In this document: positions 17,201 to 61,886 of the stretch, piece after piece
Position numbering within the stretch: the stretch's first letter is position 1
Layout of the letters: every line of letters begins with the position of its first letter
Source: a bacterium
GTDB taxonomy: Bacteria > Spirochaetota > Leptospiria > Leptospirales > Leptonemataceae
Direction of reading: 5' to 3'
Assembly: GCA_024742665.1 (NCBI GenBank)
Contig: JANSYA010000003.1
Span: forward strand, 372,001 to 436,000
DNA length: 64,000 bases
Program-made: the position numbers and the translations under genes
Notes under the pieces: model-generated
The model's input: the letters and a program-made list of their open reading frames with translations, nothing else
What the model was told of the DNA's origin: nothing
The model's database searches: none

Positions 17201-18003
17201 CCGACGGAAATCTTTCGTCGGCCTGGTCAGTGCAGACGCCTCTTTATAAGTCCCACGGCGATGCAATCGATCTGCCGGTGCCGCCGCTGCCGGAAACCGG
17301 ACCCGGACCGCGATTGATCTACACCGTGCATGCAAACGATCGACTGCTCGGGGCCGGCGAAAGCTTCGCGCGAGAGATACCGCTTCAAATTCACAGCGTC
17401 GCGCCGACGCCGGCGGCCGGCCACGTCGAATGGCTGCGTCTCTGCTCTCCCGATGGATTCTCGCCGACGGCCTATTCTCAGCCTGGATCCCGGAGCAGCG
17501 CTTCTGCCGGAGCTTCGACGAACGAAAGCCTGCAGCTCTTCGTCGCAGACTCCCGAAGCGCGGATCGCATCGTTCCCCACGCGGAACGTTTTGAGACCGG
17601 GCCGCGCGCGTTCGCTACGCCGCAAGCGAATCCATTACCGGGAACTCCGTTCGCATTTCGCACAATCGACTCCCTGGAACTCGCGCCAGGCGAATGCGCG
17701 ATTCTGGTCGATCCGGACTACGCCGGCCAGACCCTGCCTCTGATTCCTGCGGATCGCGCCCTCTGGACCATCGCGGACTCCAGTGCGATCGGCAACGGAC
17801 TATCTTCGGGGGAAGGGCTGCGGGTCTACCTGGCCACCGCAAATCAAGCGCCTGCGATTCCGCTCTGCAGCTATGGTCGTCCCGATCTACCCGACCCCTT
17901 CGCGATCCATACCGACTCCGGCCGCTACGTGTCGCGGACTTTCGATCTGGCCGCGTCGTCGCCCTTCGATGAACGGCAATTCTTTCAAGTGATCGCTCCC
18001 TGA
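14233..18003 (+). CDS. Large exported lamin-tail-domain protein
   Basis: 1256-residue protein from a GTG start (14233); an internal ATG at 14341 is an alternative. A basic N-terminus followed by MLCVAIAPAAACAA looks like a signal peptide. Lamin-tail-type segments recur, each starting with a short strand of the form xISEI or LSEF and ending FIEI/FVEL: near residues 347 (VLSEIYFRNQS), 536 (FALSEFNP) and 773 (VRISEILPAGG). A fuller lamin-tail ending occurs near 1150 (LAPGECAILVDPDYAG). Lamin-tail domains in bacteria are usually extracellular and next to nucleases or phospholipases, which matches the PLD-like lipoprotein two genes on. Role is unknown, perhaps surface attachment. First gene of a rightward set of three. 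Confidence 0.75.
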   Translation: MNAIRPLFVHLRTAWTRCKPKTGPFPKSLPAKEIACMLCVAIAPAAACAAPSAFFEAKDSFYFAGAQPLRPGWTAHFGGFQNIGSEFATRLAARDPAVASPVTLPDPAAFVEHFEGPLPADAFQNAGPEFIFPDAPNRELLCLRNLNAILFTLEAGLRLTYCTHATRDETQAVRRTIAQIQGGAGTRGAYPRYSGESIAIQVITPAELRRRLGNDIRVSIDGGRTARLADWRLASPTAHFAYDIEATRDGGREAWPPPSPSIANSSNAASSDNAAHPLPRRFPGGEFYCLLTGEALHLLYEIESDPGQLLVVSIHDDHAVREAAASFALLPELLARHIRDSRSREVVLSEIYFRNQSSGSGAIVDEFFEIASGSADVTARIAWQGDDAFESAPDGTTESAWIERNVFLFAHSTRIVERSLAFRFQRKLRFRPGEATDAVTIDLDRLPRPEFSHRSWSHTFRPGPDSAGALEGPGSMQPAPGLTASTLCRGDLARYRRLCANPGIAPALARSLALQRARFQANQMPHALPPCRLQDFALSEFNPTGIYVPPPGVGGQGSVAADGKFVELRVARACRTAGLYFRIGEKIADPGSTALSVHRPLLLIATRDPARYLDLVPAAQAGEAVAAGAAKSTGPDIFSVPALRFATAADEIAVHALPLLLPVLEEPSDAPDPGGTSRVLRATPENERLYWSGPGAAVESIGGAPSIFRAVHSLQYAGAGTQAREAFARGAGRGLRPDLREWNAMSPGQLSGLADANATEQRAIAPKPLYPEVRISEILPAGGYDANGTSLPAEEFIEIHAYSSPEHGSAHDASLEVRITKASTLNTIHQAIRLPLPERDGYFVFQRGTSRCFAHNTGGRVARLSELSLPNGPANYALHRIDATHSPALAPLIDASIIDAFTIDSFAYADLNPPRLRRSVSRFAGETAFPEFARPTDGAAAVSPYCGAATSATPGAPPSFAAFVLRDPADSHRLRLYNESTPLPLSLAYSDGNLSSAWSVQTPLYKSHGDAIDLPVPPLPETGPGPRLIYTVHANDRLLGAGESFAREIPLQIHSVAPTPAAGHVEWLRLCSPDGFSPTAYSQPGSRSSASAGASTNESLQLFVADSRSADRIVPHAERFETGPRAFATPQANPLPGTPFAFRTIDSLELAPGECAILVDPDYAGQTLPLIPADRALWTIADSSAIGNGLSSGEGLRVYLATANQAPAIPLCSYGRPDLPDPFAIHTDSGRYVSRTFDLAASSPFDERQFFQVIAP

Positions 18004-38616: not shown

Positions 38617-40080
38617 TTATTTTTTCGCGGCGTCCGTAAATTTATCCAGCAAATCTTTGACGACGTCTTGAAGATCGCCGCGGTTCGGCAGCTTGCCCAT
38701 CATGCCGTACATGGCCGCCGAACGCTTCGGCAATCCGCTGCCGCCCATCTTTGAAAACATACGCGTAATGCCGCTGGCCATCGATTCGGGTAGAACGCCC
38801 AGAGCGCTGCCGGCGAGCACGCCCATCTGCGAATTGAGTTTGCTCAAACTGAAGCGGCGGGCCTTCGCGATCGCTTCGCGGAGATCCGAGAGAAATTGTT
38901 CCACGCTCTGGGAGTGGGCCCAGTTGATCGTCAGGTGCAGGCTCGCCGGGTACTGCTGGCGGTCCAGATGCCAGCCGCGCACGCTCATCTCGTCGCCGAC
39001 TTCGTAAATGTCGAGCGAAGGATCGTCCGCCGCCAGACACATGACGCTCATATGCGGTTCGCCGAGAATTTTTACGCCGTCCATTTCGCGCACGCCTTCC
39101 GCGACGGTCCGCACGGTTTCCATTACGGTGCGCGTGATTCCGAGATACCCCTCTTCGCCGAGATAGTTCATGATCGCCCAGGCCGCGGCGATCGCTCCGC
39201 CGGGCCGGGTGCCGGCCACGGTCGGGCTCGCGTAAATTCCGCCGGGCCATTCGGTGTATACGAAGTATTGGTGGCGACGCAGATCTTTGTCTCGGTACAG
39301 TACGCATGATGCGCCCTTCGCCGCGTAGCCGTACTTGTGTAAGTCCACCGACATAGAAGTTACGCCCGGAAGCTTAAAGTCGAAGTCGGGCACGTCGAAA
39401 CCCAGCTTGCGTACGAAGGGCAGCATCATGCCGCCCACGCAGGCGTCGACGTGCATGAGAATGCCACGCGCGGCGGCGAGTTCCGCCAGCTCCGCGATGG
39501 GATCCACGACGCCCTGGGGATACTGGGGCGCCGAACCCACGATCATGATCGTGCGTTCCGTAATCGCATCCCGCATAGCATTCACATCCGCGCGATAATC
39601 CTGGGCGACCGGCATGTGGCGGATCTTTACGTCGAAATAGTGGCCGGCCTTATCGAAGGCGGGGTGCGCCGTAACCGGCACCAGAATTTCAGGTTCGGTG
39701 ATGTCGGGTCGCTCGGCTCTGAATTTCTGGCGCGCGGTTTTGACCGCCATGAGAATGCTTTCGGTGCCGCCCGAAGTCATATTGCCGGCTGTATTCGAAT
39801 CGCCGCCCAGCAGCCCCGCGGTCATCGAAAGCACTTCGCTTTCGAATTTTTTCAGACTCGGGAAGGCCCCGGGGTTCAAGCCGTTCTCCGAGAAGAACAT
39901 CGTATAGGCCTCTTTTAATACGGAGAGCATCTCCTCCCCCGCGTAAAACACCAGACTGAAGGTACGACCATCGCGCCAGCGCGTGTCTTTATCGCGGACG
40001 GCGGCCATGCGGCGAAAGACTTCGTCGCGATCGAGGCCGGCGTCGGGCAGTGAAACGGGGGTAGAATAAGATTTACTCAT
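38617..40080 (-). CDS. Sphingosine-1-phosphate lyase-like PLP-dependent decarboxylase-family enzyme
   Basis: 487 residues from ATG 40080. Group II PLP decarboxylase superfamily, closest in pattern to sphingosine-1-phosphate lyases: NMTSGGTESILMAVKTAR (phosphate site), VPVTAHPAFDKAGHYF, ILMHVDACVGGMMLPFV, the PLP lysine in SVDLHKYGYAAKGAS and the block YVYTEWPGGIYASPTVAGTR (seen here as FVYTEWPGGIYASPTVAGTR). Glutamate decarboxylase-like activity is the alternative, but WPGGxYxSPTxxGTRPGG is typical of the lyase branch. It would split a phosphorylated long-chain base into aldehyde and phosphoethanolamine. No transmembrane anchor, unlike eukaryotic forms. Confidence 0.82.
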   Translation of the reverse strand: MSKSYSTPVSLPDAGLDRDEVFRRMAAVRDKDTRWRDGRTFSLVFYAGEEMLSVLKEAYTMFFSENGLNPGAFPSLKKFESEVLSMTAGLLGGDSNTAGNMTSGGTESILMAVKTARQKFRAERPDITEPEILVPVTAHPAFDKAGHYFDVKIRHMPVAQDYRADVNAMRDAITERTIMIVGSAPQYPQGVVDPIAELAELAAARGILMHVDACVGGMMLPFVRKLGFDVPDFDFKLPGVTSMSVDLHKYGYAAKGASCVLYRDKDLRRHQYFVYTEWPGGIYASPTVAGTRPGGAIAAAWAIMNYLGEEGYLGITRTVMETVRTVAEGVREMDGVKILGEPHMSVMCLAADDPSLDIYEVGDEMSVRGWHLDRQQYPASLHLTINWAHSQSVEQFLSDLREAIAKARRFSLSKLNSQMGVLAGSALGVLPESMASGITRMFSKMGGSGLPKRSAAMYGMMGKLPNRGDLQDVVKDLLDKFTDAAKK

Positions 40081-40197
40081 TTCGGAAAAATGAATGTTTA
40101 TTCCGCATTCGTCAATCTTTTCCACGCTCAAAACACGGATTATTTTTCAGTCTATGGATAGCACGGATGGCAGGACAGCGCGGATGGCGCGAGGGGA

Positions 40198-40587
40198 TCA
40201 GAGCTTTCGCCGCACTCGTTCCAGGGCGTTTTGCAGAGCTTTCGATTCCGGACGCAGCTCAGTTGCGCGTTCTAGAAATCCCGCCGCGTCCGAGTAGCGC
40301 TTGAGGCCGTAGGCGGCGGAACCCGCCAGGCTCAGCAGACTGGCGTTGCGGGGATGCTTGCGCAAAAGCGTTTCGCACTGACGCAATACGTAGTCAAATC
40401 GCTTCGCCTGGAGCGCCGCTTTGAGAACCGTCAGGGCGTTTTGTTTTTGAGCGCCGGCGCCAGCGGCCGGGGCCGCAGCAATCGATGCGCTCGTCGCCGA
40501 ATCAGCGGGTGCTGCGCCGCGGCCGGCCGTGGCCGGGCCGGCGGACGCGCGGGAATCAAACGCGGGCTTTCCGGACGGCCTTATTTC
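40198..40587 (-). CDS. TPR domain encoded in the -1 frame of the preceding SPFH gene
   Basis: 129 codons open in the -1 frame directly after the slippery site at 40587-40593. The first 47 or so residues are an Ala/Pro/Gly-rich linker. The last 80 are two tetratricopeptide repeats (ALTVLKAALQAKRFDYVLRQ, then LLSLAGSAAYGLKRYSDAAG). The frame has no ATG or GTG; a stop lies eleven codons upstream of the slip point inside the SPFH gene. The only TTG (40386) would cut into the first TPR and leave 62 residues. Expression by -1 frameshifting would add it to the SPFH protein (about 435 residues). Alternatives are a recent frameshift mutation or a sequencing error in the A6 run. Confidence 0.6.
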   Translation of the reverse strand, partial: EIRPSGKPAFDSRASAGPATAGRGAAPADSATSASIAAAPAAGAGAQKQNALTVLKAALQAKRFDYVLRQCETLLRKHPRNASLLSLAGSAAYGLKRYSDAAGFLERATELRPESKALQNALERVRRKL

Positions 40588-41504
40588 TTTTTTGGCGCGA
40601 TCTGGCTTTGAATCCCGGCGAGCACGCTTTCAAGATTGCTCAGATCGATGGGCAGAATCACTTCGTTTTCGGGATTCGCCAGGCCTTTGAGTTTGGTCAG
40701 GAACTCTTCCGACAACGAAAGCTGCATGGCTTCCATACCGCCAGGAGCGCTCAGAGAACCCGCGATTTTTGCAATCCCCGCTGCGGTGGCTTCGGCCAGA
40801 GCGCGAATTTCGCTGGCTTCACCCGTGGCTTCGTTGATCACCTGGGTTTTATAACCTTCGGACTTGTTGATCAACTCCTGCTTGAGACCTTCCGAGCGGT
40901 TGATTACGGAAGTCATTTCGCCTTCGGAGTTGGCGATGGTCGCGCGCTTTTCGCGTTCGGCCGTCATCTGCTGCTCCATCGAAAGTAGAATTTCTTTCGA
41001 CGGGGTAATATTCTGGATCTCGTAACGCTTGATATCGACGCCCCAGAACTCCGCGGCTTCATCGACAACGGACACGATGCGCTGATTCAATGTAGCGCGT
41101 TCTTCGAATGTTTTGTCCAGATCCAGATCGCCGAAGGCGGCGCGCATAGTCGTTTGCGCCAGCTGAATCACGGCGTACTGGTAATCGTTTACGTTATAGA
41201 CCGCTTTGTACGAATCCATGACTTTCATGTAGACGATGCCGTCGACTTTGACCTGCACGTTGTCTTTGGTGATACAGAGCTGGGCCGGCACGTCGATCGA
41301 CTCTTCTTTCAGGGTCACGATATAGGCCACGCGATCGAAGAAGGGGATCAGCGCGTGAAAGCCCGCGCCGAGGGTCTTGTGATATTTACCCAGGCGTTCG
41401 ACGATGAACTCCTCCTGGGCGGGAACGATGCGAATGGCCCGCACAAATTTGTAGGCCACGTAGATAAAGAACAGGACGTAGATCAGTATGCCAATGGTTT
41501 CCAT
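40581..41504 (-). CDS. SPFH/Band 7 (paraslipin-type) membrane protein
   Basis: 307 residues. N-terminal hydrophobic anchor (residues about 3-20), then an SPFH/prohibitin-homology domain of stomatin/paraslipin type: RIVPAQEEFIVERLGKYHKT, LIPFFDRVAYIVTLKEESID, and LAQTTMRAAFGDLDLDKTFE. A coiled-coil segment follows (AEREKRATIANSEGEM). Such proteins oligomerise in membrane microdomains and often accompany NfeD proteins, as here (NfeD, SPFH, SPFH on one strand). The last codons, CCA AAA AAG AAA TAA, contain an in-frame A AAA AAG heptamer leading into a -1 frame TPR domain. Confidence 0.92.
   Translation of the reverse strand: METIGILIYVLFFIYVAYKFVRAIRIVPAQEEFIVERLGKYHKTLGAGFHALIPFFDRVAYIVTLKEESIDVPAQLCITKDNVQVKVDGIVYMKVMDSYKAVYNVNDYQYAVIQLAQTTMRAAFGDLDLDKTFEERATLNQRIVSVVDEAAEFWGVDIKRYEIQNITPSKEILLSMEQQMTAEREKRATIANSEGEMTSVINRSEGLKQELINKSEGYKTQVINEATGEASEIRALAEATAAGIAKIAGSLSAPGGMEAMQLSLSEEFLTKLKGLANPENEVILPIDLSNLESVLAGIQSQIAPKKK
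40587..40593 (-). promoter_or_regulatory. Candidate -1 programmed frameshift heptamer A AAA AAG
   Basis: On the leftward strand the SPFH codons end CCA AAA AAG AAA TAA. The heptamer A AAA AAG is in the correct phase for tandem -1 slippage, as in the well-known dnaX signal. A shift enters GAA ATA AGG and reads 129 codons into a TPR domain. I do not see a strong upstream Shine-Dalgarno-like stimulator. The nearest strong downstream stem is CCGGCC/GGCCGG, about 45 bases away, further than usual. Confidence 0.5.
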
Positions 41505-42653: not shown

Positions 42654-43193
42654 CTAGGCGTACGGGCTTGCGTCCGAATCAGACCGCGGCGCGCCGTCCG
42701 CTGCATCCGCAGCGCCGGAATCGGACTCTCCATCCACCGGCTCCACGATCAATAACAAATTTTTACGACCGACGATTTTTGCGCTCTGACCGGAATAGAT
42801 CGGGCTGCCCATGGTCGCCGCCTGCCAGTTGGCGCCCTGAAATCGAACCAGGCCGTCGGTTCTGTCGGGCAGAATGTCTTCGGTGACCTCGACCCGGCGA
42901 CCCAGAATCTCCTGCGGCTCCGGCCGCGGATCGTAGCGCTCCAGCGCCGGAAACCAATTTGCGATCTTCCGCCGAAAGAGCAGCACCATCACCAGCGAAG
43001 ACAGCACCCAGGTCAAAAGCTGGGCCTGAAATCCCGGCAAAGCTTCCGCCATGGTCAAAAGCCCGGTCAAAACCGCGCCCGCGCCGAAAAAGATGATCAC
43101 CGCGCCGGGCACGGCCAGTTCCAATCCGATCAGCACCAGTCCGAAAATAATCCAGGAAGGGCCGCTCAAAAAGAGATTCGCAAGGTCTGTCAT
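42654..43193 (-). CDS. NfeD family membrane protein
   Basis: 179 residues from ATG 43193. Two or three transmembrane helices at the start (WIIFGLVLIGLELAVPGAVI, then LLTWVLSSLVMVLLF). A soluble OB-fold domain of the NfeD C-terminal type follows (LGRRVEVTEDILPDRTDGLV, then AKIVGRKNLLLIVEP). This is the short NfeD form, without a ClpP-like protease domain. NfeD proteins pair with SPFH/paraslipins, and two such genes follow on the same strand. The last 25 residues are an acidic, Ala/Asp-rich tail. Confidence 0.9.
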   Translation of the reverse strand: MTDLANLFLSGPSWIIFGLVLIGLELAVPGAVIIFFGAGAVLTGLLTMAEALPGFQAQLLTWVLSSLVMVLLFRRKIANWFPALERYDPRPEPQEILGRRVEVTEDILPDRTDGLVRFQGANWQAATMGSPIYSGQSAKIVGRKNLLLIVEPVDGESDSGAADAADGAPRSDSDASPYA

Positions 43194-43332
43194 ACTGCGT
43201 GCACTGCAGGGCCGCGTAAGAGCGCTGTAAATCAGAAATCGCTCCGAAATCACAATCCGAGCGTCACCCGGGAATCGACCGGCTCAATTTTCCCGCGTCG
43301 TCGCAACTCGCCCCGGGGCTTATACTGGACTT

Positions 43333-47100: not shown

Positions 47101-48654
47101 ATGGAGATTATCGTTTTGCATTCCCTGATTGTACTGCGCGAGGTCGGACTGACCTTCGCCGACCACATCTGTTTCGAAAATTTTTCGGCGGAGCTGCACG
47201 CGGGCGATCGCGTCGGGCTGATCGGCCCGAACGGCAGCGGCAAGACTTCGCTGCTGAAGCTGCTCGCAGGCGAAGCGGCAGCCGGCGATTCCGATAACGC
47301 CGCTCATATCGACGGCGCAATCCAGCGGCCGCCGAATCTGCGGGTCGCGCGCAGCAAACAATTTCCGCCGCGCGAGATCGCCGGGCAAAGCGGCGGCGAA
47401 ATATTCCAGAGCGAATTTGCGCGCGCGCTACGCGAAGATCCGGACGTGCTGCTCCTGGACGAACCCGACAATCATCTCGACGAAGGCCACCGAGCCCGTT
47501 TGATTCGCAGACTGCGCGACTTTCCAGGCAGCCTGGTCGTCGCCTCGCACAAACCCGAATTGTTACGAACTCTGTGCACGAAACTCTGGGTTTTCGAAGA
47601 GCGGCCGGCATCCTCCGCGCGAGCGAGCGCCCGCTACCGCCTGCGCATCTTTCACGGCGATTATGACGCGTACAGACAAGAACGGGAGATCGAGGAGCGC
47701 GCCCACTCCGCTGAATTCCTGGAGCTACGCTCGCGGGAACGCTCGATAAAAAGCGAACAGGAGCGCGAACTTCGCAGGGCCGCAAGCAGCCGGCGCGCGA
47801 ATCGCGGCGAAAACGATCGCAATCTACGACGCGGGATGCAGGAGCGCGCTTCGCGTACGAAAGGCAAGCACGGCCGACGCACCGCCGCGGCTCGAACGCG
47901 ACTCCAGCAAGATATCGTCGAACATCGCGAATGCGCTTCGCACCGCCGCGTCCCCCGCTTTCGATTCAACTTTATCCCGGAAGATTCCAGGCGCCGGAAC
48001 GGGAACAGCGCGATCGCAACGGTGCGCAGCGGGTCGGCGGGCTTTCAGGCGGATGAGAGAACGATTTTCGCGCCCCTGAGTTTTACGCTGCGCGCCGGCG
48101 AAAGTCTGGGGATTCGCGGAAACAACGGCGCGGGCAAGAGCACCCTGCTTGCGGCTCTGCGTTCGGCTCCAGGAATTTATCGGCAAGGAGAATGGCACGT
48201 GCCGCAGGCTTCGCAAGACGGCTTCGCGCGCATCGCCTGGATCGATCAGTTTTTCGCGCAGCTACAGCCGGAACGCACGGTGCTCGAAGAGATCATGAGC
48301 GTGCAGCCGGGATGGACGCACTCCCGGGCCCGCGAACATCTAAACGACGCCCTGTTCTCGACCAACGCCGAGATCGCGCGGCGAGTGGCCGATCTATCCG
48401 GGGGCGAGCGAGCGCGCCTGAGCTTCGCCCGCATCGCCGCCCGGCCGCCCCGGCTTTTGTTGCTCGACGAAATCAACAATCACCTGGATTTGGAAAGCCG
48501 CTCAACTGTGATCGAAGCGCTGCAAAATTTTGCCCGGGCCGGCGGCGCCTTCGTGATCGCGTCCCATGACGTCGATTTTCTGAGAGCGCTCGGTCTTACG
48601 AGCGAGCTGCGCGTGTTTCGACGGCGACCGCCTCGCGATAGCGACGCGGACTGA
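47101..48654 (+). CDS. ABC-F family ATPase
   Basis: 517 residues with two ABC ATPase domains and no membrane part, the ABC-F plan. Domain 1: Walker A GPNGSGKTSLLKLL (near 42), a divergent signature GQSGGE, Walker B VLLLDEPDNHLD. A basic linker follows (about 195-280, Arg/Glu-rich). Domain 2: Walker A GNNGAGKSTLLAAL (near 340), signature LSGGERARLSFARI, Walker B LLLLDEINNHLD. ABC-F proteins act on the ribosome in translation control or antibiotic protection. The divergent first signature and Ile in place of Pro in DEIN are notable. Its 3' end overlaps by 59 bp the convergent receptor-regulator gene. Confidence 0.9.
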   Translation: MEIIVLHSLIVLREVGLTFADHICFENFSAELHAGDRVGLIGPNGSGKTSLLKLLAGEAAAGDSDNAAHIDGAIQRPPNLRVARSKQFPPREIAGQSGGEIFQSEFARALREDPDVLLLDEPDNHLDEGHRARLIRRLRDFPGSLVVASHKPELLRTLCTKLWVFEERPASSARASARYRLRIFHGDYDAYRQEREIEERAHSAEFLELRSRERSIKSEQERELRRAASSRRANRGENDRNLRRGMQERASRTKGKHGRRTAAARTRLQQDIVEHRECASHRRVPRFRFNFIPEDSRRRNGNSAIATVRSGSAGFQADERTIFAPLSFTLRAGESLGIRGNNGAGKSTLLAALRSAPGIYRQGEWHVPQASQDGFARIAWIDQFFAQLQPERTVLEEIMSVQPGWTHSRAREHLNDALFSTNAEIARRVADLSGGERARLSFARIAARPPRLLLLDEINNHLDLESRSTVIEALQNFARAGGAFVIASHDVDFLRALGLTSELRVFRRRPPRDSDAD

Positions 48655-50422
48655 GGCCCTGAGATTTCTGGAAGGCGTTGTGAAAGGTCGACAGGGAATT
48701 GAATCCAACGGCGAAGGCGATCTCGACGACTTTGCGCGCCGGCTCTTCGCGCAGCAGCCCGCAGGCTTCGCGCACGCGAAAGCCGTTCACATAGTCATGG
48801 AAACTCTGGCCCAGGACTTCGTTTAGAAATTCCGAAAGCTCCTTCTCCGAAATCGAAAGGCAGCCGGCGAGATCGCGCAGCGTAAGCTTTTCGCGATAGA
48901 TGGCCTGGACTTCCATCGCCTGGTGCAAGCCGGCCTCGACTCGCTTCAGATCCAGGTGCGCGATGCGCGAAATCGCTCGCTGCTGCCTGGCATTCGAGTC
49001 GAGTTCGCTTTTCGCTTCCACTGCTGGCTCGCTCGCTTCGGGCAGGGCTTCACGCGCGGAAGCGGTCGCGGAAGATGCAGCCCGGGCGTGAGCCTCAAGC
49101 GCATGCGTATTCTGAATCGCGACAGCGGACGCGCCAGGCCCGGCGACCAGTCGCAGACGGAGTCGGTCCGCGATGGCGAAAGGAAAGAGCACCATCTCGA
49201 AGGTCGTGCCGAGGGCCAGGCCTTCCAGCATCTCCACGCCCAGCAGATAGTTCGGCAGCATTCCATAGATCTGCAAAATCAAAACGATCAGCGTCACCGA
49301 ATAGCCGCCCCAGGCCAGGACATAAAAGCGCGCCGGCCGATAGCCCTGCAACAGGATGCGAATTCCGGCGTATTGACTGGCGATGATGGAGGCCGGGATC
49401 AAAAACAATCCGTTGATTCGGTCGATTAGATGCGCCGGAACGAACAGGAGCGCGAGCGAAACGCAGAACGCGAAGCCCATGCAGAACAAAATAAAGCGGT
49501 CGAAGACGGGCAGCCGCGCGGGCGTATCCAGAAATTTCCGCGCGAATAAAAGCGCGAAGATGACCGTATAACAGGAGGTCAAAGTCGTAAATCCAGCGGC
49601 CGTGGCCGGCGCCCTGGGCCAGATGTATTGAAAGGCGTAGCCCTGTAGAGAAAACTGATAGGCGAAATTCAAGGCCAGGTAGGCCATATAAAGCAAAAAG
49701 ATATTGTCGCGAAAATGTAAGAACAAGGCGAACGACGCCGTTATAAGCAGCAGGAAGAAACCGGCGTAGGCTCCCATCCGCAGCTGTTCCATACTCCAGT
49801 ACTCGGCGTAGCGCGCATCGGACATAATCGAAATGGGAATGCTCATCGGATTGCGAGATCGCGCGGCGATATACAGTTCATAACTTGCACCGCCGGAAAG
49901 CCGCAGGGGAAAGGCGTACTTGCGGCGGGGAATATCGCGCCCGTAAAAATCGAAATCCCGTCCGGCGGTTTTCTGAAAGTGAATCTGCGCCGCGGCGTCT
50001 GTGGGCTGCGCATCCAGGTCGGGGGCGCCCGCGGAATGCAAAAAGGCGAAAAGGTCGATACGATCGAGGTACTCGTTATCAATCACGACCAGCGCGGACG
50101 TATCTTTCGCCGTGGGGTTCTCGACACGAAAGCGCAACCAGTAGATCGCGTCGCTGAATCCGAAGGCCGTAGCGCCGGAACCCAGGGGCGTCCATTGCCC
50201 CGCGGCGAAACGGGCCCTGTTGAGCTCCAGGTCGCCCTCATGATCGACGTGGTATTCCAGCCCGCTTCCCCGCAGATGCGAAAGCTCACCAAACAGGTCG
50301 AGCAGCGCCGGTCCGCCGTGCGTCGCTCCGCTGTCCGCAGCGCCGCAGGAAGAACCGGTACAAAGCGAAACGCCAAGCAGGCAGAATAGCAGCGTCTTTG
50401 ATTTCCATCGAGCGGAATTCAT
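48596..50422 (-). CDS. 7TMR-DISM receptor fused to AraC-type DNA-binding domain
   Basis: 608 residues. A signal peptide ending near SSCG may be a lipobox. Residues about 35-200 are the extracellular 7TMR-DISM beta domain (AIYWLRFRVENPTAKDTSAL, then RRKYAFPLRLSGGASYELYI). Seven transmembrane helices follow (about 205-410: GAYAGFFLLLITASFALFLH and others), then a linker. An AraC helix-turn-helix domain ends the protein (about 500-600: LTLRDLAGCLSISEKELSEF, then VVEIAFAVGFNSLSTFHNAF). It should link an external ligand directly to gene control. Convergent with, and overlapping, the ABC-F gene. Confidence 0.9.
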   Translation of the reverse strand: MNSARWKSKTLLFCLLGVSLCTGSSCGAADSGATHGGPALLDLFGELSHLRGSGLEYHVDHEGDLELNRARFAAGQWTPLGSGATAFGFSDAIYWLRFRVENPTAKDTSALVVIDNEYLDRIDLFAFLHSAGAPDLDAQPTDAAAQIHFQKTAGRDFDFYGRDIPRRKYAFPLRLSGGASYELYIAARSRNPMSIPISIMSDARYAEYWSMEQLRMGAYAGFFLLLITASFALFLHFRDNIFLLYMAYLALNFAYQFSLQGYAFQYIWPRAPATAAGFTTLTSCYTVIFALLFARKFLDTPARLPVFDRFILFCMGFAFCVSLALLFVPAHLIDRINGLFLIPASIIASQYAGIRILLQGYRPARFYVLAWGGYSVTLIVLILQIYGMLPNYLLGVEMLEGLALGTTFEMVLFPFAIADRLRLRLVAGPGASAVAIQNTHALEAHARAASSATASAREALPEASEPAVEAKSELDSNARQQRAISRIAHLDLKRVEAGLHQAMEVQAIYREKLTLRDLAGCLSISEKELSEFLNEVLGQSFHDYVNGFRVREACGLLREEPARKVVEIAFAVGFNSLSTFHNAFQKSQGLSPRRYREAVAVETRAARS

Positions 50423-51465: not shown

Positions 51466-54400
51466 ATGAACACAGACCTTCAGCCAATCTCGACCACCAC
51501 ACCGAAATCCGCCGGCGGACTGCGTAGAATTCTGCCGGGACTGATCGCAGTGCTGCTGCTCGCCCTGCCCCCCGCCGTTCATTTGAACGCGCAGCCGGTG
51601 CCGGTGCCGGCTCTGGGAACGCCGGGCTACCAGCCCACGGACTTCGATCCGTTTTTTAACACAGCCCAGGGCAGTGCGACCCAGGCAAGCTGGGAGACTC
51701 TGATCGATCAGGCGCGCGTCGTCCTCGGCGCCCAGTGGGAAGCGCAGGTCGATGCGACGATCGGCGCCCACGTCGCCGCGGTCGGCCAGAACGATTATTT
51801 TCATACGCCGCAGGAGTACCGCGATTATCTCACCAAAGAGCTGCACTTACAAAAGCAAACCGCCTTCGCCGCCTGGGAAGCCCAGGCCGACGTGCAAATT
51901 GAAATTCAGCGCGAGACCTTTCTAGCGGCACTGAGCGAAAGAAAGAAACGCGAAGCACTCGAAGAATCAGAGCAAACCACCGAGCAGGCCGATACGACTC
52001 AGGTCGACCTGGGCGATCAACAGGACGCCTGGGAAAATGAATTCGGCGAAGCCGTCGAAAACGGTTTTCAGCAGTTTCAGTCGGCCCTGGGCGACGTCTA
52101 CAGTCAGTATACATCGTTCTTACAAACCCTGGCGGATAAAGAACAGGAGTTCGAACAAAACCGCCTGCAAATTGAAGCGTACGAACAAACCGTGCGCGAC
52201 GGCATTCAAAACACGGTCTACGCTCTCGACAGCTATCTACAGAGCAACGGCCTCTTCCGCGAAGAGAACTGCACGACGACCGGCGCCGCCGGGACGCAAA
52301 GCACGAGCTGCACGACCGACATGGCCACGTACAATACGGCCGGCACGCGTCTGCAAACCCTGATCACGAATTTACAGGACGGTCTCGATAACGACACACC
52401 GCTTTCGACTCTCGCCACCTTGATGAACGACTATCTCGACCAGGAGCACACCGACGCGATTACCCGGCGCGACTACTGGGGCGGCCTGATTCGCAATGCG
52501 TACACTTATTCCAAAGCGGAGTACGTGACTCACGGCAATCCTTATCCTATCCCTGACGTAGCGAGCGTCTTCGAGGCGCGCAACAGCGGATACGCAACCT
52601 TCACGGGCCTGACGGCGATGATCGCGGCGAAAGGCGATCCGCGCGTCGTCGAAGGCATCAACTGGGCCGACTTGCGCGGCTATTCCCACAATTATATCGC
52701 CGGGCCTGATCAGGTCGGCCACAGTAATTTCCAGAACGAATGGTACAGCACCCACGGCGACAACGCCTTTCGTTTTAACTGGGAGCGCCGCCATACGTAC
52801 TGGTACAATTGCGGCGGTTTTCCGTGCCAGGGCAGCTATACCAGTCACCACACCGCGAACGAATCGCATCTCGAAATCCAGGCCAGCTACAACTGGTACG
52901 ATCCAAACGCCGATCACAACAACCAGGTCTGGGGCGGCTACGTAAACGATATGGCGCCGGTGCTCGCCAACTGGCGCGATAATATCGTGCCCGCGATTCA
53001 GAACTGGGAGGCCCAGGTCGCGACTTATACCGCCAACCACCAGGCCTATCTTGCAGACGCCCAGACCAAACGCGACGCGGCGACCACGCAATTTAATACC
53101 AGCATGGATACTCTGACCGAAAGCCGCAACAAGTGGCTTTCGCAGATGCAAGAAGAGTTTCGCAAAGGCCGCAACGAGTGGGTCTCGATGGGACGCACCG
53201 CTCGTTCGGCGAACGCGACGCCGGCCGTCGTGGCGACGGCGGTGAGCGAAGCCGCGAGCTTCGAAAATCAAATCGCGCTCTTACAAAAACAGGCCGAAGC
53301 CAGCGCCGCCAGCGCGCCCGTCCCGGACGCCACCGCCCTGGACGGTCTGCAGAGCGCCTTTCAGAAAGCGAGCAAAGGTATTATCAATTTATCTCTGGCT
53401 GCTACGCTAAACGACCAGGTCGTCGAGCAGCGCACGGCGATTACGGAAAGCATCGCCGCGCAAATCGGCGCGAACGGGCTGGACGGTATCTCCGAAGAGA
53501 AGCTGCGCGAAATGGCGCAAAAGCAGGCCGACCAGACCGGACGGCCCGTAGAAGAGATCATCGAAGCGATGCGCAAAGACGCGAACGATCGCCAGTACGA
53601 TGTGCGCATCGACGAGAACGGTCGCATTATCGCGACGCGTCAGATCAAAAGCGGCAATGTCGGCGGCTCCACCGGCGACGGCACCGGCTACAACGACTAC
53701 ACCGCCGAGATGATGGAACAGGAGCTGGTCATCGCGCCGCCTCCCGCCATTCAATTGGTCAAAACCGGCGGCGCCTTCGACGACTGGGATTTGAATTCGT
53801 ACGTCAACGACCACTACGAAAATCAACAGGCGCAAACCGAGATTCTCGAAAACTACAATAAGTACGTCGCCGGCGAACAGGAAATAGCCGACGAACTGCG
53901 CGAAGTCCAGGATATCATCTACAACGCCAACGTCGAAGCCAGCATGACCGCGGCGCAAAACCGCAAGGCCGCCAAAGAACAGTTCAGCAGCCTGCTGAAC
54001 TCCGTCGCCAGCGCCATGATGGGCGGCGCGTCCTTCAGCGACGCCTTTGGTGCGGCGAGCAACGAGCAGCTTTCGAACGAGATCGCGCGCATTACGGGCA
54101 TTCCCTCGAATTTCTTTAACGGCGTCTTAAACGGCGAAAGCTGGCAGAGCGCCCTGACCGACGCGACCGAATTCCTGATGACCGACTACGTGACGAAAGC
54201 CGTGGTCGAAGCGACCGGATTGCCGGCCGGATTCATTTCGGGCATCGCGGGACCCGGCGGTCTCGACATGAGCGGCGAAGGCATGAAGGCTTCGTTTCAG
54301 AATTACAGCGAGCAGTTGTTTGCCGAAACACTCGAAAAGCAAACCGGCATTCCCGGTCTGGGCGCGCTGGCGCTTTCTAAACACAAAGAACACCAGGCGG

Positions 54401-57400
54401 AACGCGAGCGCGTCGACTCCGAGCGCAAAGCGCTGGTCGGTTTTGCGACGGGCCATCCCGCGGGTTGGGCCTACGCCGCCACCCACGTCATGAAACACAC
54501 GCCGGTCGGGCGCGAAGTGACGAATCAGGCTCTGGGTATCTTAAACGGCAGTACCATGAGCAACGCTACGGGTACGCCCTCGGCGCTCTGGAGTCCGCTC
54601 GGCGGAATTCTGCCCGCAAACGTCGACGAATTGGATGAACTAGCCGGAGACGTCTTTAATATCGTAGAGGGCAATATGGACGGCCGCGAGCTCGGCGAAA
54701 AGTTCCAGGACCGCTTCGACGGCTGGGTCGATAGCAATATCGCATCAGTCGAAGATCTGGGCCAGCTACAGCTCGCAGACCTACCAGGACGCATCGGCCA
54801 GGGCATCACCGGTTACCTTTCGGCCGGCATGGGCATGATCATGAAACCGCTCACGGCCCTGACGAATCCGCCGGATGAGTTCAGCCCCGAAGAGCTGGTC
54901 GTGCGCGAAAGCCTGGCGATGCAGGTGTCGGAAGCCACCGGCCAGAACCATGCGTACTTGATGGCCGTCGCTCGCGGCGAAAGCTATGAAGACGCGGCCT
55001 ACGCACAGGCGTACGACGACGCGGCGACTTCGATCTATGGCGACAATATCCCGCCGCAGTTTCGCGACCAGGTCGTGGGCACGGTGCGCGATTATACCGA
55101 ACATACTTTAGAACGTTTAGAATTTCAGCGGCAACGGGAACGCGCCAGGAACGATCCGCTGAATATCTGGCGGAACGCCGAGTACGGCAGCCGCGACCAA
55201 CAGCTCGCGTTGCAGGCCGCGGAAATCGGCGCGGGCGTCGCGGCGAGTGTGGCGACGGCCGGCTGGGCCGCGCCGGCCTTCATCGGCTATATGGCCGCGA
55301 AGGGCGCCTACACCGGTTCCGGCGACGGCGGCGGCGGCATCGGCGCGCTGGCCGGTGCGGCATCGGCCGTGGTCAGTCAGGTCACGCCGGTCAATCTTGA
55401 CTTAAAGTACAGCGAAGAAGACGGCTTCAGCGGTTCGGTCGGTTTCGGCGTTCCGATCGGCGAACAGGAGCTCGTCAACGTCGGCGGCGGCATCACCTTC
55501 TCCCAGAACGAAGGCATCACCGGCGCGAATATAAATCTTGGAGTCAAAGCCGGCAAAGAGAGCAAACTAAAGGGCGCGTCCGCCGGTCTGGACTTAAATT
55601 TCGCCGCCGACGGGACCTTCACCGGCGGATCGGCCAGCGCGAGCTTTACGCGCACGAACAAGAAAGGCACGAAAGGCGGCAAAGTAGCCCTCGGCATCGA
55701 CTTCGATCATTCGCTTTCGTATACGTCGGCGAGTATCGACGTATCGGCCACGCTTACGAATAAGGACATCGACGGCGGCTACTTCGATAACTGGCAGAGC
55801 GACTATACGGCGGGCCTCGGCCTGACCATGAATCGCGACGGCAGCTACGCGACCCGCGTGAAACAAAGCGTAAGTTTATACAATGATCGGCGCCGCAGCT
55901 TTGGCGGTTCGGTCGACTCGACACTGACCCAGAACTATTCGAATATGGGTGACTTCGAGACCAGCACGATCTCGATGAAGCACGGCGTGTCGATTACCAG
56001 CGAAGACGAGGCGCAGCAGGGTCGCTTAAAGTACCTCAAAGAGAAGCTGGAAGAGATGGGCGAATTCGAGATCGGTTCGCCGGAGTGGGACGCCCTGTAC
56101 GAACAGTACGATGAGATCGCCGACGAACACTGGAACAACGACGTCGAGCGCGCGAAAGAAAAGCACGAGGCGGAGATCAAAGCCGGACTGATGGCCGCAG
56201 GGATGAGCGAAGCGGAAGCGATCGGTTATATGCAGCACGCAGACCGGCATACTGACGGCTGGAACAAAATGCTGAAGGCGATGGGGCTCAAAAGCGATAC
56301 CTCCGACGGCACCGGCCCGCTGGATAAAGCGTGGGCCTGGATGAAAGACGAGACGATGCAATTGCTGGGATTCCGCAGTCGCAAAGACGGTTACGTCGAT
56401 CCGGAGACGGGCATCTATCACGAGAAGACCTGCTTCGTGGCGGGCACCCCCGTGCGCGTCCATCCGGACACGCGTGGCGCTTATGAATCAAATGGTAGCT
56501 GGTATAAGGATATCGAAGAAGTAGAAGCGGGCGACATCGTGATGAGCTGGAACGAAGACAGCGGTGAAGTTGGGTACAATCCCGTGGCGCAAACATTCGT
56601 ACGCGATACCGATTTAATCTACGAGGTCACCTACGCCGACGGCACGCAGGTTGAGACCACCTGGAATCACCCCTTCTATATCGACGGGCGCGGGTGGACG
56701 CAGGTGAAGGATCTGCGAGTGGACGATGTATCGGTTGCGGCAACGCAGACCGCCGACGGACGCATGCTGGCGACGACGATCTCTCAGGCGCGGACGGCGA
56801 GTGCAGGAATTTCCAGCGCCGCAAGCCCGCATCGGATTGCGCGTATCGTGAAGAGCGCTCGCGACGAAGTGGTGTACAACTTCGAGGTCGGGCAGGATCA
56901 TACGTACTTTGTGACCGATGCGGATGTGTTGGTGCATAACCAGGGAGGACCTTATCCGAGTGTTGGAATTGGGCCCTATTTGAACTGCTACATGGCCAGC
57001 GGTAATGCGGAGCATTGCCGGAAATTGGCTGAGATGGACCAACGGGCAGCGGTTCTTTCCGGTGCGGCGACCGCCGTGATAGCGGGTGCAACAGCCTGCG
57101 CCGCCGGCGGCTGCCAGGCTCTGGCGGCTGGATCGGGCGGTCTGATTCCTTACACATTCAGCTGGCTCCAGGTCAATGCGCCCTGGTTGGCTTCAGCTAC
57201 TGGAGTTTCTGCATCGCTGTCACGCACAAGCGTTCGGGATAAGCTGGCCAGGTATTTGCTGAATCCGTCCCATCCCGTTGGCGGGCCAAAAGCCAGATGG
57301 TTTGAAAGTGCGCTCGGTTTTACATCTAAAAATGGTTCAGCGTTGGCCCGACAAATCGTTTTCGACCCCAAGAGCGCTGTTAAAACGGCCGTAACCGAGC

Positions 57401-57531
57401 ACGGCACCAAGTATAACCAGGTTATATCGATTCTAGGAGCAAACGGGCGCAAAATCGATGTCACATTTGCATGGATAAAAAATAATGACGGCGTTGTCCG
57501 ACTCGTAACATCTATTCCGGCGAAAAAATGA
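51466..57531 (+). CDS. Giant secreted protein with C-terminal Hint domain and DUF6883-like toxin tip
   Basis: 2021 residues. Signal peptide in residues about 20-45 (LPGLIAVLLLALPPAVHLNA). The body resembles the very long Leptospira surface-protein family (TIGR04388, 'Lepto_longest', from memory): helical, Gln/Ala/Glu-rich to about residue 1300, then Gly/Ser-rich strands (about 1305-1480). Residues 1656-1825 are a pretoxin-type Hint domain: N-terminal nucleophile in TCFVAGTPV, TTWNHPFYI, and the end FEVGQDHTYFVTD...VLVHN with terminal Asn. The tip (about 1922-2021: LLNPSHPVGGPKARWFE, then HGTKYNQVISILGANG) matches DUF6883. The stop overlaps a DUF4926-like gene. Read as a polymorphic toxin whose tip may be released by Hint cleavage. 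Confidence 0.85.
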   Translation: MNTDLQPISTTTPKSAGGLRRILPGLIAVLLLALPPAVHLNAQPVPVPALGTPGYQPTDFDPFFNTAQGSATQASWETLIDQARVVLGAQWEAQVDATIGAHVAAVGQNDYFHTPQEYRDYLTKELHLQKQTAFAAWEAQADVQIEIQRETFLAALSERKKREALEESEQTTEQADTTQVDLGDQQDAWENEFGEAVENGFQQFQSALGDVYSQYTSFLQTLADKEQEFEQNRLQIEAYEQTVRDGIQNTVYALDSYLQSNGLFREENCTTTGAAGTQSTSCTTDMATYNTAGTRLQTLITNLQDGLDNDTPLSTLATLMNDYLDQEHTDAITRRDYWGGLIRNAYTYSKAEYVTHGNPYPIPDVASVFEARNSGYATFTGLTAMIAAKGDPRVVEGINWADLRGYSHNYIAGPDQVGHSNFQNEWYSTHGDNAFRFNWERRHTYWYNCGGFPCQGSYTSHHTANESHLEIQASYNWYDPNADHNNQVWGGYVNDMAPVLANWRDNIVPAIQNWEAQVATYTANHQAYLADAQTKRDAATTQFNTSMDTLTESRNKWLSQMQEEFRKGRNEWVSMGRTARSANATPAVVATAVSEAASFENQIALLQKQAEASAASAPVPDATALDGLQSAFQKASKGIINLSLAATLNDQVVEQRTAITESIAAQIGANGLDGISEEKLREMAQKQADQTGRPVEEIIEAMRKDANDRQYDVRIDENGRIIATRQIKSGNVGGSTGDGTGYNDYTAEMMEQELVIAPPPAIQLVKTGGAFDDWDLNSYVNDHYENQQAQTEILENYNKYVAGEQEIADELREVQDIIYNANVEASMTAAQNRKAAKEQFSSLLNSVASAMMGGASFSDAFGAASNEQLSNEIARITGIPSNFFNGVLNGESWQSALTDATEFLMTDYVTKAVVEATGLPAGFISGIAGPGGLDMSGEGMKASFQNYSEQLFAETLEKQTGIPGLGALALSKHKEHQAERERVDSERKALVGFATGHPAGWAYAATHVMKHTPVGREVTNQALGILNGSTMSNATGTPSALWSPLGGILPANVDELDELAGDVFNIVEGNMDGRELGEKFQDRFDGWVDSNIASVEDLGQLQLADLPGRIGQGITGYLSAGMGMIMKPLTALTNPPDEFSPEELVVRESLAMQVSEATGQNHAYLMAVARGESYEDAAYAQAYDDAATSIYGDNIPPQFRDQVVGTVRDYTEHTLERLEFQRQRERARNDPLNIWRNAEYGSRDQQLALQAAEIGAGVAASVATAGWAAPAFIGYMAAKGAYTGSGDGGGGIGALAGAASAVVSQVTPVNLDLKYSEEDGFSGSVGFGVPIGEQELVNVGGGITFSQNEGITGANINLGVKAGKESKLKGASAGLDLNFAADGTFTGGSASASFTRTNKKGTKGGKVALGIDFDHSLSYTSASIDVSATLTNKDIDGGYFDNWQSDYTAGLGLTMNRDGSYATRVKQSVSLYNDRRRSFGGSVDSTLTQNYSNMGDFETSTISMKHGVSITSEDEAQQGRLKYLKEKLEEMGEFEIGSPEWDALYEQYDEIADEHWNNDVERAKEKHEAEIKAGLMAAGMSEAEAIGYMQHADRHTDGWNKMLKAMGLKSDTSDGTGPLDKAWAWMKDETMQLLGFRSRKDGYVDPETGIYHEKTCFVAGTPVRVHPDTRGAYESNGSWYKDIEEVEAGDIVMSWNEDSGEVGYNPVAQTFVRDTDLIYEVTYADGTQVETTWNHPFYIDGRGWTQVKDLRVDDVSVAATQTADGRMLATTISQARTASAGISSAASPHRIARIVKSARDEVVYNFEVGQDHTYFVTDADVLVHNQGGPYPSVGIGPYLNCYMASGNAEHCRKLAEMDQRAAVLSGAATAVIAGATACAAGGCQALAAGSGGLIPYTFSWLQVNAPWLASATGVSASLSRTSVRDKLARYLLNPSHPVGGPKARWFESALGFTSKNGSALARQIVFDPKSAVKTAVTEHGTKYNQVISILGANGRKIDVTFAWIKNNDGVVRLVTSIPAKK

Positions 57532-58688: not shown

Positions 58689-61600
58689 ATGCGCATCGGT
58701 TTCGCGATTCTCATTTCCGTATTTCTGACAACCCTGATCGCCTGCAAGAATAGCGAGCGGGAAATTGAAGCGACCGTCGCAACGAACGCCGGCATGGAGG
58801 TCTCACCGCCCCGGGCGCGGGCCGGCGCTCTTGATCTCAGCAACTTCGACTTCGATCGCACGCCCGTTGTAAACCTCGACGGCGACTGGGAGTTCTACTG
58901 GTCGGCGCTCCTGGCTCCGAATGACTTCCAGACGCTCGCACGGTCCGCGGCGGGCGATGCGGATCGGGATCGCGCGACTGCAAATCCCGCCTATCGCGCG
59001 GTGCCCCTGGTCTGGGATCCAGTACCGGAAGATTCTACCAACGTGCAGCCCGACGGCGTCGCGACCTATCGCCTGAATATCCAGCTGCCGCCCGGCAAAC
59101 GCTTCGCGCTCAAGCTGCTGGATCAAAGCTCAGCCTTTCGCATATTCGCGAATGGCGAAGAGGTCTATGCGAGCGGCATAGTCGGCGCGACGGAAGATGC
59201 ATATACGCCGCTGCTGAAACCCGGCATAGCTCCGCTTGATCTGGAGCCGAATCAAACGGAACTCGAACTGATCTTACAGGTCGCGAATTTCGATCATCAG
59301 AGCGGCGGCACCTGGGAGCCGATCCGTCTGGGACTCCGCGAAGCGGTGATCGCCGAACGCGAACGTGCGCTGGCCTTCGCACTCTTTTTGTTCGGCAGCC
59401 TGTCGATCGTGGGCCTGTATCACCTGGGACTCTTCGCGCTGCGCTCGAAAGATCGCACGGCGCTCTATTTCGGCCTGGTGTGCTTGTTATTGGGAGCGCG
59501 GGTGCTGGTGACCGGCGAACGCTTCCTGATTCATCTATTTCCGGAAGCCGGCTATGACTTCTATTTGCGCCTGGAATATCTCGCGTACTTCGCATCAGTT
59601 CCCACTTTTGTTCAGTTCTGGCGATCGTTGTTTCCAAAAGAGATGCCGCGTCTGTTCGTGCAGGCCTCGGTCGCGGTCGCCGTGCTGTGTTCACTGCTGA
59701 CCATCGGACCGACGCGATATTTTTCCGAGCTGGCCCTGCCCTATAATATCTGGGCCGTGCTGCTTTCGGTCGGCGGTCTGGTGAGCGTGATTTTCTCGAT
59801 CGCTCGCGGTCGTTCCGGGGCGCGGATCTTTTTGCTGGGATTCGTCGTCCTGTTTGCGACATTGATCAACGACGTATTGTACAATTCGCAGATCATCTAT
59901 ACATTTCAACTCACGCCCTTCGGCGTTTTCGTATTTATCTTTTCGCAGGCTTATCTGTTATCGATGCGCTTTTCGAGCGCCTTTCACGAAGTGGAGGTGC
60001 TTTCGGACCGATTGGAATCGCGAGTTGAGGAGCGGACCCTGGAACTGCGCCAGGAGCAGGAGTTAACCGAAAAGGCCCGCGCGGCGATGGAATCCCTGAA
60101 TAGTTTTTCGCGATTGGTCAACGCGACCGTGGAACTTGACGAGGTGATCGACTACGGCGTCGCGTACTTGAGAGCCCGCCACGACATCGAATCGATCTGG
60201 CTGCAATTCGTGGATCGCGAAAAAAACGAATTGTATACGTACAATACTTTCGGCGAAGACCGGCCGGACGTCCAGCGCTTCTATCAGGAGCTCCGCATTC
60301 CCCTGGTGCCGGAAAGCGGCACGGTCTATCGCACATACATTCGCAAGCGTCCGTTTTATCTTTCGCGAGTCGGGAACGCCTTCCCCTCGGATTACGATCG
60401 TCGCATTGTAAACCAGGGCGGCGGCCTGCAGTCGCTGCTTCAGATCCCATTGGAAGTCCAGGATGAAGTCATCGCCATGTTGCATCTGACCTCTTTCGAG
60501 CGACCGCTGCATTTCTCGCGCAGCGATATTCAATCGATCGCGCACTTCGGCGCGCAGATGGCCACCGCGATTCACAACTCGACGCTTGTCGCGCGGGCCG
60601 CCACCGAACAACAGGCCGCCGAAGCGGCGCGCCAGGAACTCTCGAATTTGCATGAGTTTTCGCTCAGCATCAACGCCACCGCGGAATTAGAAAGCGTGCT
60701 AAAGGATATTCTCGCTTATGCTACGGGCGAATTTCAAATCGAAGGTCTGCTTTTGATGCTGATGGATTCAGAAAAAGAGAGCCTGAACTATTACTGGACC
60801 AACGAGATGGGTTTTCATACCGATGAGATCCGCGAGCACGTTCATAATATGACGATCCCCATGGCGCCGGAAGGCGGCTGGGCCTACCAGGTCGCGCGCC
60901 GCAAACGTTATTCCTATATGCCGAAGATTCAAATCGGCCGGGTCAGGGAAGAAGATCCCGTGCAAAAGATGGCGAAGATCGCGGGGATTCGTTCGGCCTT
61001 GATCTATCCGCTGATCGCGGAAGGCGAAGTGATTGGACTGTTCTTCTTTTCGAATTATCATAATCCGATGCTGCTTTCCCGCGCGAATATAGAGGCGATC
61101 GGTCGCATGTGCAACCAGGTCGCGGGCGCGGTGCGAACCAGCGCGTTGATGTCGGCCGTGCACGCCGAACGCGAAAAATCGGATCGCCTGCTGCGGAATA
61201 TTTTACCGGACACGATCGCGGCCGAGTTAAAAGACAAAGGCTACGTAAAGCCCAGCCTGTATGAGTCCGTTACGATTTTATTCACGGACTTCAAGGGCTT
61301 CACTCGCTTCGCAGCCGACATGGCGCCCCGGGAGCTGGTGGAAGAATTGGATCGCATCTTTTTACAATTCGATCGCATCGTCGAACGGCACGGCATCGAA
61401 AAACTAAAAACGATCGGCGACGCCTATATGTGCGTGGGGGGACTTCCGGAACGCAACGAAAGCCACGCCCTTGATGTTTGCCTGGCCGCCCTTGAGATCT
61501 TGAATTTCATGAACGAAACCCGCCGGATTAAAAAAGAATTCGCGGGCGAAGAATTCTGGGAACTGCGCATCGGCATTCATTCCGGGCCCGTGGTCGCCGG

Positions 61601-61886
61601 CGTCATCGGTAAAAACAAATTCGCGTACGATATCTGGGGCGACGCGGTCAACACGGCCTCGCGTATGGAATCGTCCGGCGTAGCGGGCGCGATCAATATT
61701 TCGGCGGAGACGCGATCGATCGTCGAGCCCTACTTCGAATGCGAGTATCGCGGCAAGATCGCGGCGAAAAATAAGGGCGAGCTTGAAATGTATTTTCTAA
61801 AACGCCTCAAACCGGAGTTCTCCCGGGACGCCGACGGCCTCCTGCCCAACGATGCGTTTTCAGCGCAGCGCCGATCGCCTGCATGA
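58689..61886 (+). CDS. 7TMR-DISM receptor adenylate cyclase with GAF domains (class III)
   Basis: 1065 residues. Signal/lipobox-like start (FLTTLIACKNS). Residues about 40-220: extracellular DISM beta domain (VNLDGDWEFYWSALL). Seven transmembrane helices (about 230-430), a coiled coil (about 435-470), two GAF domains (about 475-640 and 655-825), then a class III cyclase domain (about 840-1040). Its catalytic residues are readable: metal Asp in LFTDFKGFTRF, the adenine-specifying Lys in EKLKTIGDAYMCVGG and Asp in FAYDIWGDAVNTASRM. These favour ATP over GTP. It should make cAMP in response to an external ligand and GAF-bound signals. A cyclic-nucleotide-binding protein is encoded at 29210-31393. 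Confidence 0.93.
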   Translation: MRIGFAILISVFLTTLIACKNSEREIEATVATNAGMEVSPPRARAGALDLSNFDFDRTPVVNLDGDWEFYWSALLAPNDFQTLARSAAGDADRDRATANPAYRAVPLVWDPVPEDSTNVQPDGVATYRLNIQLPPGKRFALKLLDQSSAFRIFANGEEVYASGIVGATEDAYTPLLKPGIAPLDLEPNQTELELILQVANFDHQSGGTWEPIRLGLREAVIAERERALAFALFLFGSLSIVGLYHLGLFALRSKDRTALYFGLVCLLLGARVLVTGERFLIHLFPEAGYDFYLRLEYLAYFASVPTFVQFWRSLFPKEMPRLFVQASVAVAVLCSLLTIGPTRYFSELALPYNIWAVLLSVGGLVSVIFSIARGRSGARIFLLGFVVLFATLINDVLYNSQIIYTFQLTPFGVFVFIFSQAYLLSMRFSSAFHEVEVLSDRLESRVEERTLELRQEQELTEKARAAMESLNSFSRLVNATVELDEVIDYGVAYLRARHDIESIWLQFVDREKNELYTYNTFGEDRPDVQRFYQELRIPLVPESGTVYRTYIRKRPFYLSRVGNAFPSDYDRRIVNQGGGLQSLLQIPLEVQDEVIAMLHLTSFERPLHFSRSDIQSIAHFGAQMATAIHNSTLVARAATEQQAAEAARQELSNLHEFSLSINATAELESVLKDILAYATGEFQIEGLLLMLMDSEKESLNYYWTNEMGFHTDEIREHVHNMTIPMAPEGGWAYQVARRKRYSYMPKIQIGRVREEDPVQKMAKIAGIRSALIYPLIAEGEVIGLFFFSNYHNPMLLSRANIEAIGRMCNQVAGAVRTSALMSAVHAEREKSDRLLRNILPDTIAAELKDKGYVKPSLYESVTILFTDFKGFTRFAADMAPRELVEELDRIFLQFDRIVERHGIEKLKTIGDAYMCVGGLPERNESHALDVCLAALEILNFMNETRRIKKEFAGEEFWELRIGIHSGPVVAGVIGKNKFAYDIWGDAVNTASRMESSGVAGAINISAETRSIVEPYFECEYRGKIAAKNKGELEMYFLKRLKPEFSRDADGLLPNDAFSAQRRSPA

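Follow-up and report, generated by a model that had tools for sequence, protein, structure and literature searches.

Probable −1 frameshifting near the stop codon of an SPFH gene would append a TPR domain to a share of its product in six bacterial genomes

How is a TPR domain translated when its reading frame opens inside an SPFH gene and offers no start codon ahead of the domain? This arrangement occurs on the minus strand of the window, the 64,000-nt stretch of a Leptonemataceae contig (JANSYA010000003.1) analysed here, at the 3′ end of a stomatin/QmcA-type gene, SPFH2 (Table 1). A sequence-only reading of the locus had proposed a programmed −1 frameshift at a dnaX-type slippery heptamer. 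Base-by-base checking of the minus strand gave GCG CCA AAA AAG AAA TAA as the end of SPFH2, so that the in-phase A_AAA_AAG and the 307-aa length of the gene are exactly as that reading had stated, and the computed translation of a −1 shift on the heptamer yields a fused SPFH–linker–TPR protein of 435 aa, the size it had estimated for a 129-codon extension. This extension runs from GAA at 40587 to TGA at 40200–40198, within a −1 frame that is open from 46 nt upstream of the SPFH2 stop to 383 nt downstream of it. The proposed lack of an ATG or GTG also holds ahead of the TPR domain in the window and extends to TTG, the earliest of which lies 197 nt from the SPFH2 stop, within the TPR domain. The window contains 133 stop-to-stop frames of 150 or more codons, and a terminal in-phase A_AAA_AAR coupled to a −1 extension of 80 or more codons occurs only in SPFH2; this chance count covers the window and the retrieved SPFH2 loci. 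From the comparative sequence evidence below, we hold a programmed −1 shift close to the SPFH2 stop, rather than a sequencing error, to be the probable explanation.

Table 1. Positions in the window of the SPFH2 locus, its −1 extension and the neighbouring genes
Feature	Position	Strand	Remarks
SPFH2 (0 frame, 307 aa)	40581..41504	-	Band_7 and Band_7_C; QmcA is the closest solved relative
In-phase slippery heptamer A_AAA_AAG (A6G)	40587..40593	-	Ends one codon ahead of the stop codon; A_AAA_AAR counterpart in five relatives
0-frame stop TAA, end of the short product	40581..40583	-	0–1 codon past the run in 6/6 genomes
−1 frame extension, 129 codons and TGA	40198..40587	-	No start of its own ahead of the TPR domain
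Ala/Pro/Ser-rich linker, about 41 aa	40465..40587	-	Predicted disordered (pLDDT about 46–57); length highly variable among relatives
TPR domain, five predicted helices (two TPR units and cap)	40201..40464	-	pLDDT above 90; best structural matches are TPR domains
SPFH1 paralogue, 310 aa	41611..42543	-	Band_7 and Band_7_C; directly upstream of SPFH2; SPFH1 neighbour also in relatives
NfeD-like protein	42654..43253	-	NfeD E = 3.1e-10; listed with a GTG start, which may not be the true one

Both halves of the putative fusion resemble known domains. SPFH2 matches Band_7 (E = 2e-36) and Band_7_C (2e-9), its best solved relative is Escherichia coli QmcA (8z5g, E = 2e-53, residues 7–301) and its N terminus is hydrophobic as judged from the sequence. 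The tail was described in the sequence-only reading as an Ala/Pro linker followed by two TPR units, and profile searches and modelling bear this out. In the window, the tail weakly matches TPR_9 (E = 1.7e-4) and TPR_19 (1.3e-3) in Pfam and TPR_hemY_coli (1.8e-6) in NCBIfam; TPR models of Pfam match the tails of all six genomes that carry one, with single matches mostly under the Pfam cut-offs. An AlphaFold2 model built on a six-row alignment of the tails predicts a disordered linker and five helices with pLDDT above 90; in structural comparison it matches TPR domains best, including several that bind Hsp90 peptides, at E values of 1e-3 and above and a probability of 1.0. For this predicted structure, such matches indicate the fold, not the ligand. 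The six tails can be aligned, with 29–37% identity to that of the window; the linker ranges from a few residues to about 41, and the TPR part is retained throughout.

To place the arrangement in its lineage, we searched for SPFH2 in the family (22 genomes), the class (48) and the phylum (393), read the downstream DNA in all frames and searched it with a profile made from the first five TPR extensions. Seventy-five SPFH2 loci from the window's own class and the phylum sample had at least 250 nt downstream and were used for counting heptamers. A TPR module lies behind SPFH2 in exactly six of these loci, in the window genome (G000) and in G007, G004, G005, G039 and G042, whose SPFH2 proteins are 52–79% identical to that of the window, and in all six it is in the −1 frame relative to SPFH2. 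An in-phase A_AAA_AAR heptamer 2–4 codons ahead of the SPFH2 stop is present in 6/6 loci with the TPR module versus 1/69 without it (Fisher p = 3.5e-8, a value that ignores shared ancestry and is therefore optimistic). Both features that the sequence-only reading had proposed to look for in relatives, the heptamer and the −1 frame, thus recur in five genomes besides the window.

The ends of the six genes differ in sequence and agree in layout: CCA AAA AAG AAA TAA in the window, CCA AAA AAA AAC TGA in G007, TCA AAA AAA AAC TGA in G004, TTA AAA AAA AAG TAA in G005, ACA AAA AAA AAG AGC TGA in G039 and GGG AAA AAA AAA CCG TAG in G042. The run is exactly A9 in the five relatives and A6G in the window, and every site follows the X_XXY_YYZ pattern of slippery heptamers, as A_AAA_AAG in the window and as A_AAA_AAA, AAG or AAC in the relatives. 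The 0-frame stop comes 0 or 1 codons after the A run in each case. In an unselected frame, a stop would fall within two codons with a chance of about 0.09, and six such placements would have a chance of about 5e-7 by our own arithmetic, which takes the six as independent. Because this placement is kept in all six genomes, the short product appears meant to end there, and the locus does not look like a miscounted continuous gene.

The six loci belong to two families and occupy about five branches of the class-wide SPFH2 tree. About five state changes are needed to account for them, and the association of heptamer and TPR module has therefore been met several times, through old inheritance with losses or through transfer. 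The tail is patchy and missing from most relatives, which likewise points to repeated loss or transfer; sister genomes retain SPFH2 without it, and the long form is therefore dispensable. In another family of the class, argB lies behind SPFH2 in G039, G035 and G030 (loci L134, L115 and L125). The TPR frame of G039 ends TAA ACC, with argB beginning at the next ATG; in G030 and G035 argB lies directly behind SPFH2, whose end is the shorter AAG AAA AAG, an arrangement whose sequence suggests clean loss of the TPR module.

Could the two frames be one gene, split by a sequencing or assembly error that dropped an A? Homopolymers are error-prone and a single extra A would join the frames in 6/6 genomes, yet we regard an error as highly improbable: the identical frame relation recurs in six separate assemblies, a continuous gene would not retain a stop 0–1 codon past the run in every one of them, the run in the window has merely six A, and the other long genes of the window are intact (for example, ORFs of 2021, 1256 and 1065 aa). 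Nor did the survey recover the uninterrupted form. The loci read in the class and the phylum sample include no in-frame SPFH–TPR fusion; the five TPR-bearing relatives all have the tail in −1 behind A9. Long open frames of 648 aa in G103 and G270 were considered as SPFH–TPR fusions and rejected; these frames extend upstream, and the SPFH stop comes 10 codons past the match. The missing fusion also weighs against a decaying remnant, in which an ancestral in-frame fusion was broken by indels and its TPR part became a pseudogene. Absence of the TPR module from most relatives would fit such decay, as would argB standing directly behind SPFH2 in two genomes as if the TPR part had been lost, but the idea is scarcely credible when each of the six TPR frames runs uninterrupted to a stop of its own and matches TPR profiles, and when independent decay would not repeat the same frame and motif. 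In the −1 frame, dN/dS was 0.25 for the window and G007, 0.40 for the window and G004, 0.33 for G004 and G005 and 0.41 for G004 and G042, that is, 0.25–0.41 in four of the five unsaturated pairs and 0.8 in the fifth (window and G039); these are rough values, with window–G007 near saturation and the remaining pairs saturated. On this sequence evidence, the −1 frame is open and protein-like in six genomes. That the TPR frame is instead a separate small gene, reached by coupling or internal initiation at the SPFH2 end, is very unlikely. The nearby SPFH stop would permit re-initiation, and candidate starts occur close to the beginning of TPR helix 1 in two genomes (ATG and GTG in G005, TTG in G042). 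None of these candidates has an SD-like element, however; upstream of helix 1, ATG, GTG and TTG are all absent in the window, G007, G004 and G039; and a free gene would not retain the −1 register and an in-phase heptamer in 6/6 loci. The credible independent start that would have spoken against the sequence-only reading is thus missing, and no stand-alone orthologue of the TPR module was found in the 48 class genomes; other matches of the TPR search in the class were ordinary TPR proteins of large size, none stronger than E = 2e-10, together with a 284-aa frame in G034 (6.6e-9).

The remaining alternative keeps the two products and changes the machine, with RNA polymerase rather than the ribosome slipping on the A run, so that mRNAs of mixed length arise and one inserted A yields the −1 frame. 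In five of the six loci the run is exactly nine A long. Transcriptional slippage operates at this length in Thermus thermophilus dnaX, and selection against slippage begins to show in many genomes at the same length (PMC1088944). The window, with only A6 followed by G, falls under that length; moreover, the run can change only in steps of three if the arrangement is to be kept, so that ‘exactly nine’ is partly forced, and nine-A runs also serve as a frameshift cassette in E. coli, in an assay that does not separate the two routes (PMC3711429). As a general account of the six loci, polymerase slippage is therefore a minority possibility that we hold to be rather unlikely. Taken site by site, the window's A6G favours ribosomal slippage, whereas at the A9 sites of the relatives transcriptional and ribosomal slippage are equally possible from sequence.

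In the recoding that we favour, most translation would stop at TAA and release the 307-aa SPFH2. In a fraction of passages, two Lys-tRNAs would slip one base back on A_AAA_AAG, and the ribosome would continue through the disordered linker into the TPR domain, giving the 435-aa form; in the A9 relatives, polymerase slippage may add to this route or replace it. A downstream structure or an upstream SD-like stimulator is common, not obligatory, in bacterial −1 frameshifting. As the sequence-only reading had noted, no strong stimulator lies close to the heptamer. An SD-like element at stimulatory spacing upstream of the run was found in none of the six TPR-bearing loci, and folding of 60 and 100 nt downstream in all six revealed no shared RNA structure: over 60 nt the window folds no better than shuffled sequences (z = −0.8), G004 has a strong hairpin (z = −4.5) and the hairpin of G005 is weaker than that of G004. 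Because an SD-like stimulator and a strong hairpin are both missing in the window, the efficiency at its A6G may be low. A_AAA_AAG is one of the three most efficient heptamers in E. coli, given a stimulator (PMC4066793), and magnesium-chelatase (chlD-type) cassettes shift to −1 in E. coli at 10% with 7 A, 40% with 9 A and 63% with 11 A (PMC3711429).

What a second, longer form could do is suggested by the relatives of SPFH2. The gene stands last in a cluster of order NfeD–SPFH1–SPFH2, so that an NfeD gene accompanies it as in SPFH–NfeD operons. (On the minus strand, the TPR frame is directly followed, at 38617–40131, by a PLP-dependent decarboxylase whose best NCBIfam match, tyrosine decarboxylase MfnA, is under its cut-off.) QmcA forms a 26-mer cage (PMC12624060), the 8z5g structure containing 26 chains, and its C terminus is predicted to be cytoplasmic (PMC10434171). 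Because the oligomerising SPFH/coiled-coil part is common to both forms, the short and long products should co-assemble, and would do so in one NfeD-associated membrane cage. A set minority of subunits would then carry a TPR clamp for recruiting a partner from the cytoplasm; by homology to the QmcA 26-mer, the slip rate would set the ratio of short to long subunits, as in dnaX tau/gamma, and the TPR arms would sit at the C-terminal cap, which would face the cytoplasm if SPFH2 shares the topology of QmcA. We lean slightly towards such a mosaic SPFH cage, in which the slip rate would fix the number of TPR arms per approximately 26-mer by a mechanism old in the class, ribosomal at A6G and ribosomal or polymerase-driven at A9.

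SPFH cages have defined subunit numbers and poorly known partners. Stomatin, prohibitin, Erlin and HflKC form large cages of this kind, and the C-terminal regions of Erlin1/2 converge at the narrow end. Known SPFH complexes are all homo-oligomers or assemblies of two-paralogue heterodimers (PMC12624060), unlike the present case, in which one gene would yield two subunit lengths. The E. coli QmcA–YbbJ pair is a close counterpart, with QmcA matched by SPFH2 along its length and an NfeD gene clustered with SPFH2; it differs in that two SPFH paralogues stand in tandem here and some copies of one would bear a recoded TPR tail, a feature that we did not find described for QmcA in the literature searched.

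As a recoding event, the nearest parallel is dnaX, in which the same class of slippery sequence is used (ribosomal −1 at A_AAA_AAG in E. coli, transcriptional at A9 in Thermus), a single gene supplies an oligomer with short and long subunits, and ribosomal and polymerase slippage serve as interchangeable solutions, as proposed for SPFH2. Unlike in dnaX, the longer SPFH2 product would be the shifted one, with a new domain added; the SPFH2 sites lack an SD-like element and a conserved hairpin, and the protein is unrelated; dnaX itself was located in the same genome as the window's SPFH2. To our knowledge, few ordinary (non-mobile) bacterial genes have a conserved programmed frameshift, dnaX and chlD being among the best known, and SPFH2 would add a case from a membrane-scaffold family. 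The chlD/magnesium-chelatase genes (a GeneTack cluster from six genera, PMC3711429) share with SPFH2 the −1 direction, the A runs (A7–A11) and the addition of a C-terminal part, and differ in having in-frame fusions and in protein and purpose. A phrase search gave no earlier description of SPFH recoding, and neither did the main text of the GeneTack paper nor the consulted part of a recoding review. A-run −1 recoding is a known class, of which this would be a new member, and an SPFH–TPR architecture produced by it appears to be undescribed in the literature searched.

The frameshift reading of the SPFH–TPR arrangement is supported by comparative evidence. If true, a mosaic from a single gene would be new for SPFH proteins and would give the cell a way to build cages in which partner-binding subunits make up a small, fixed share. 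The A6G and A9 sites would form a natural set for comparing ribosomal with transcriptional slippage, and gene calling in these genomes would cut SPFH2 short and overlook the TPR domain.

Elsewhere in the window, the 1256-codon ORF at 14233–18003 (+) has no Pfam matches at E of 1e-5 or better. Two 7TMR-DISM sensor proteins lie near each other at 48596–50422 (−) and 58689–61886 (+), one with an AraC-type HTH output and the other with GAF domains and an adenylate/guanylate cyclase. The 2021-aa protein at 51466–57531 (+) carries a C-terminal pretoxin HINT domain followed by DUF6883 and, from its sequence, resembles proteins of the polymorphic-toxin type, with a HINT step that would be self-cleaving.
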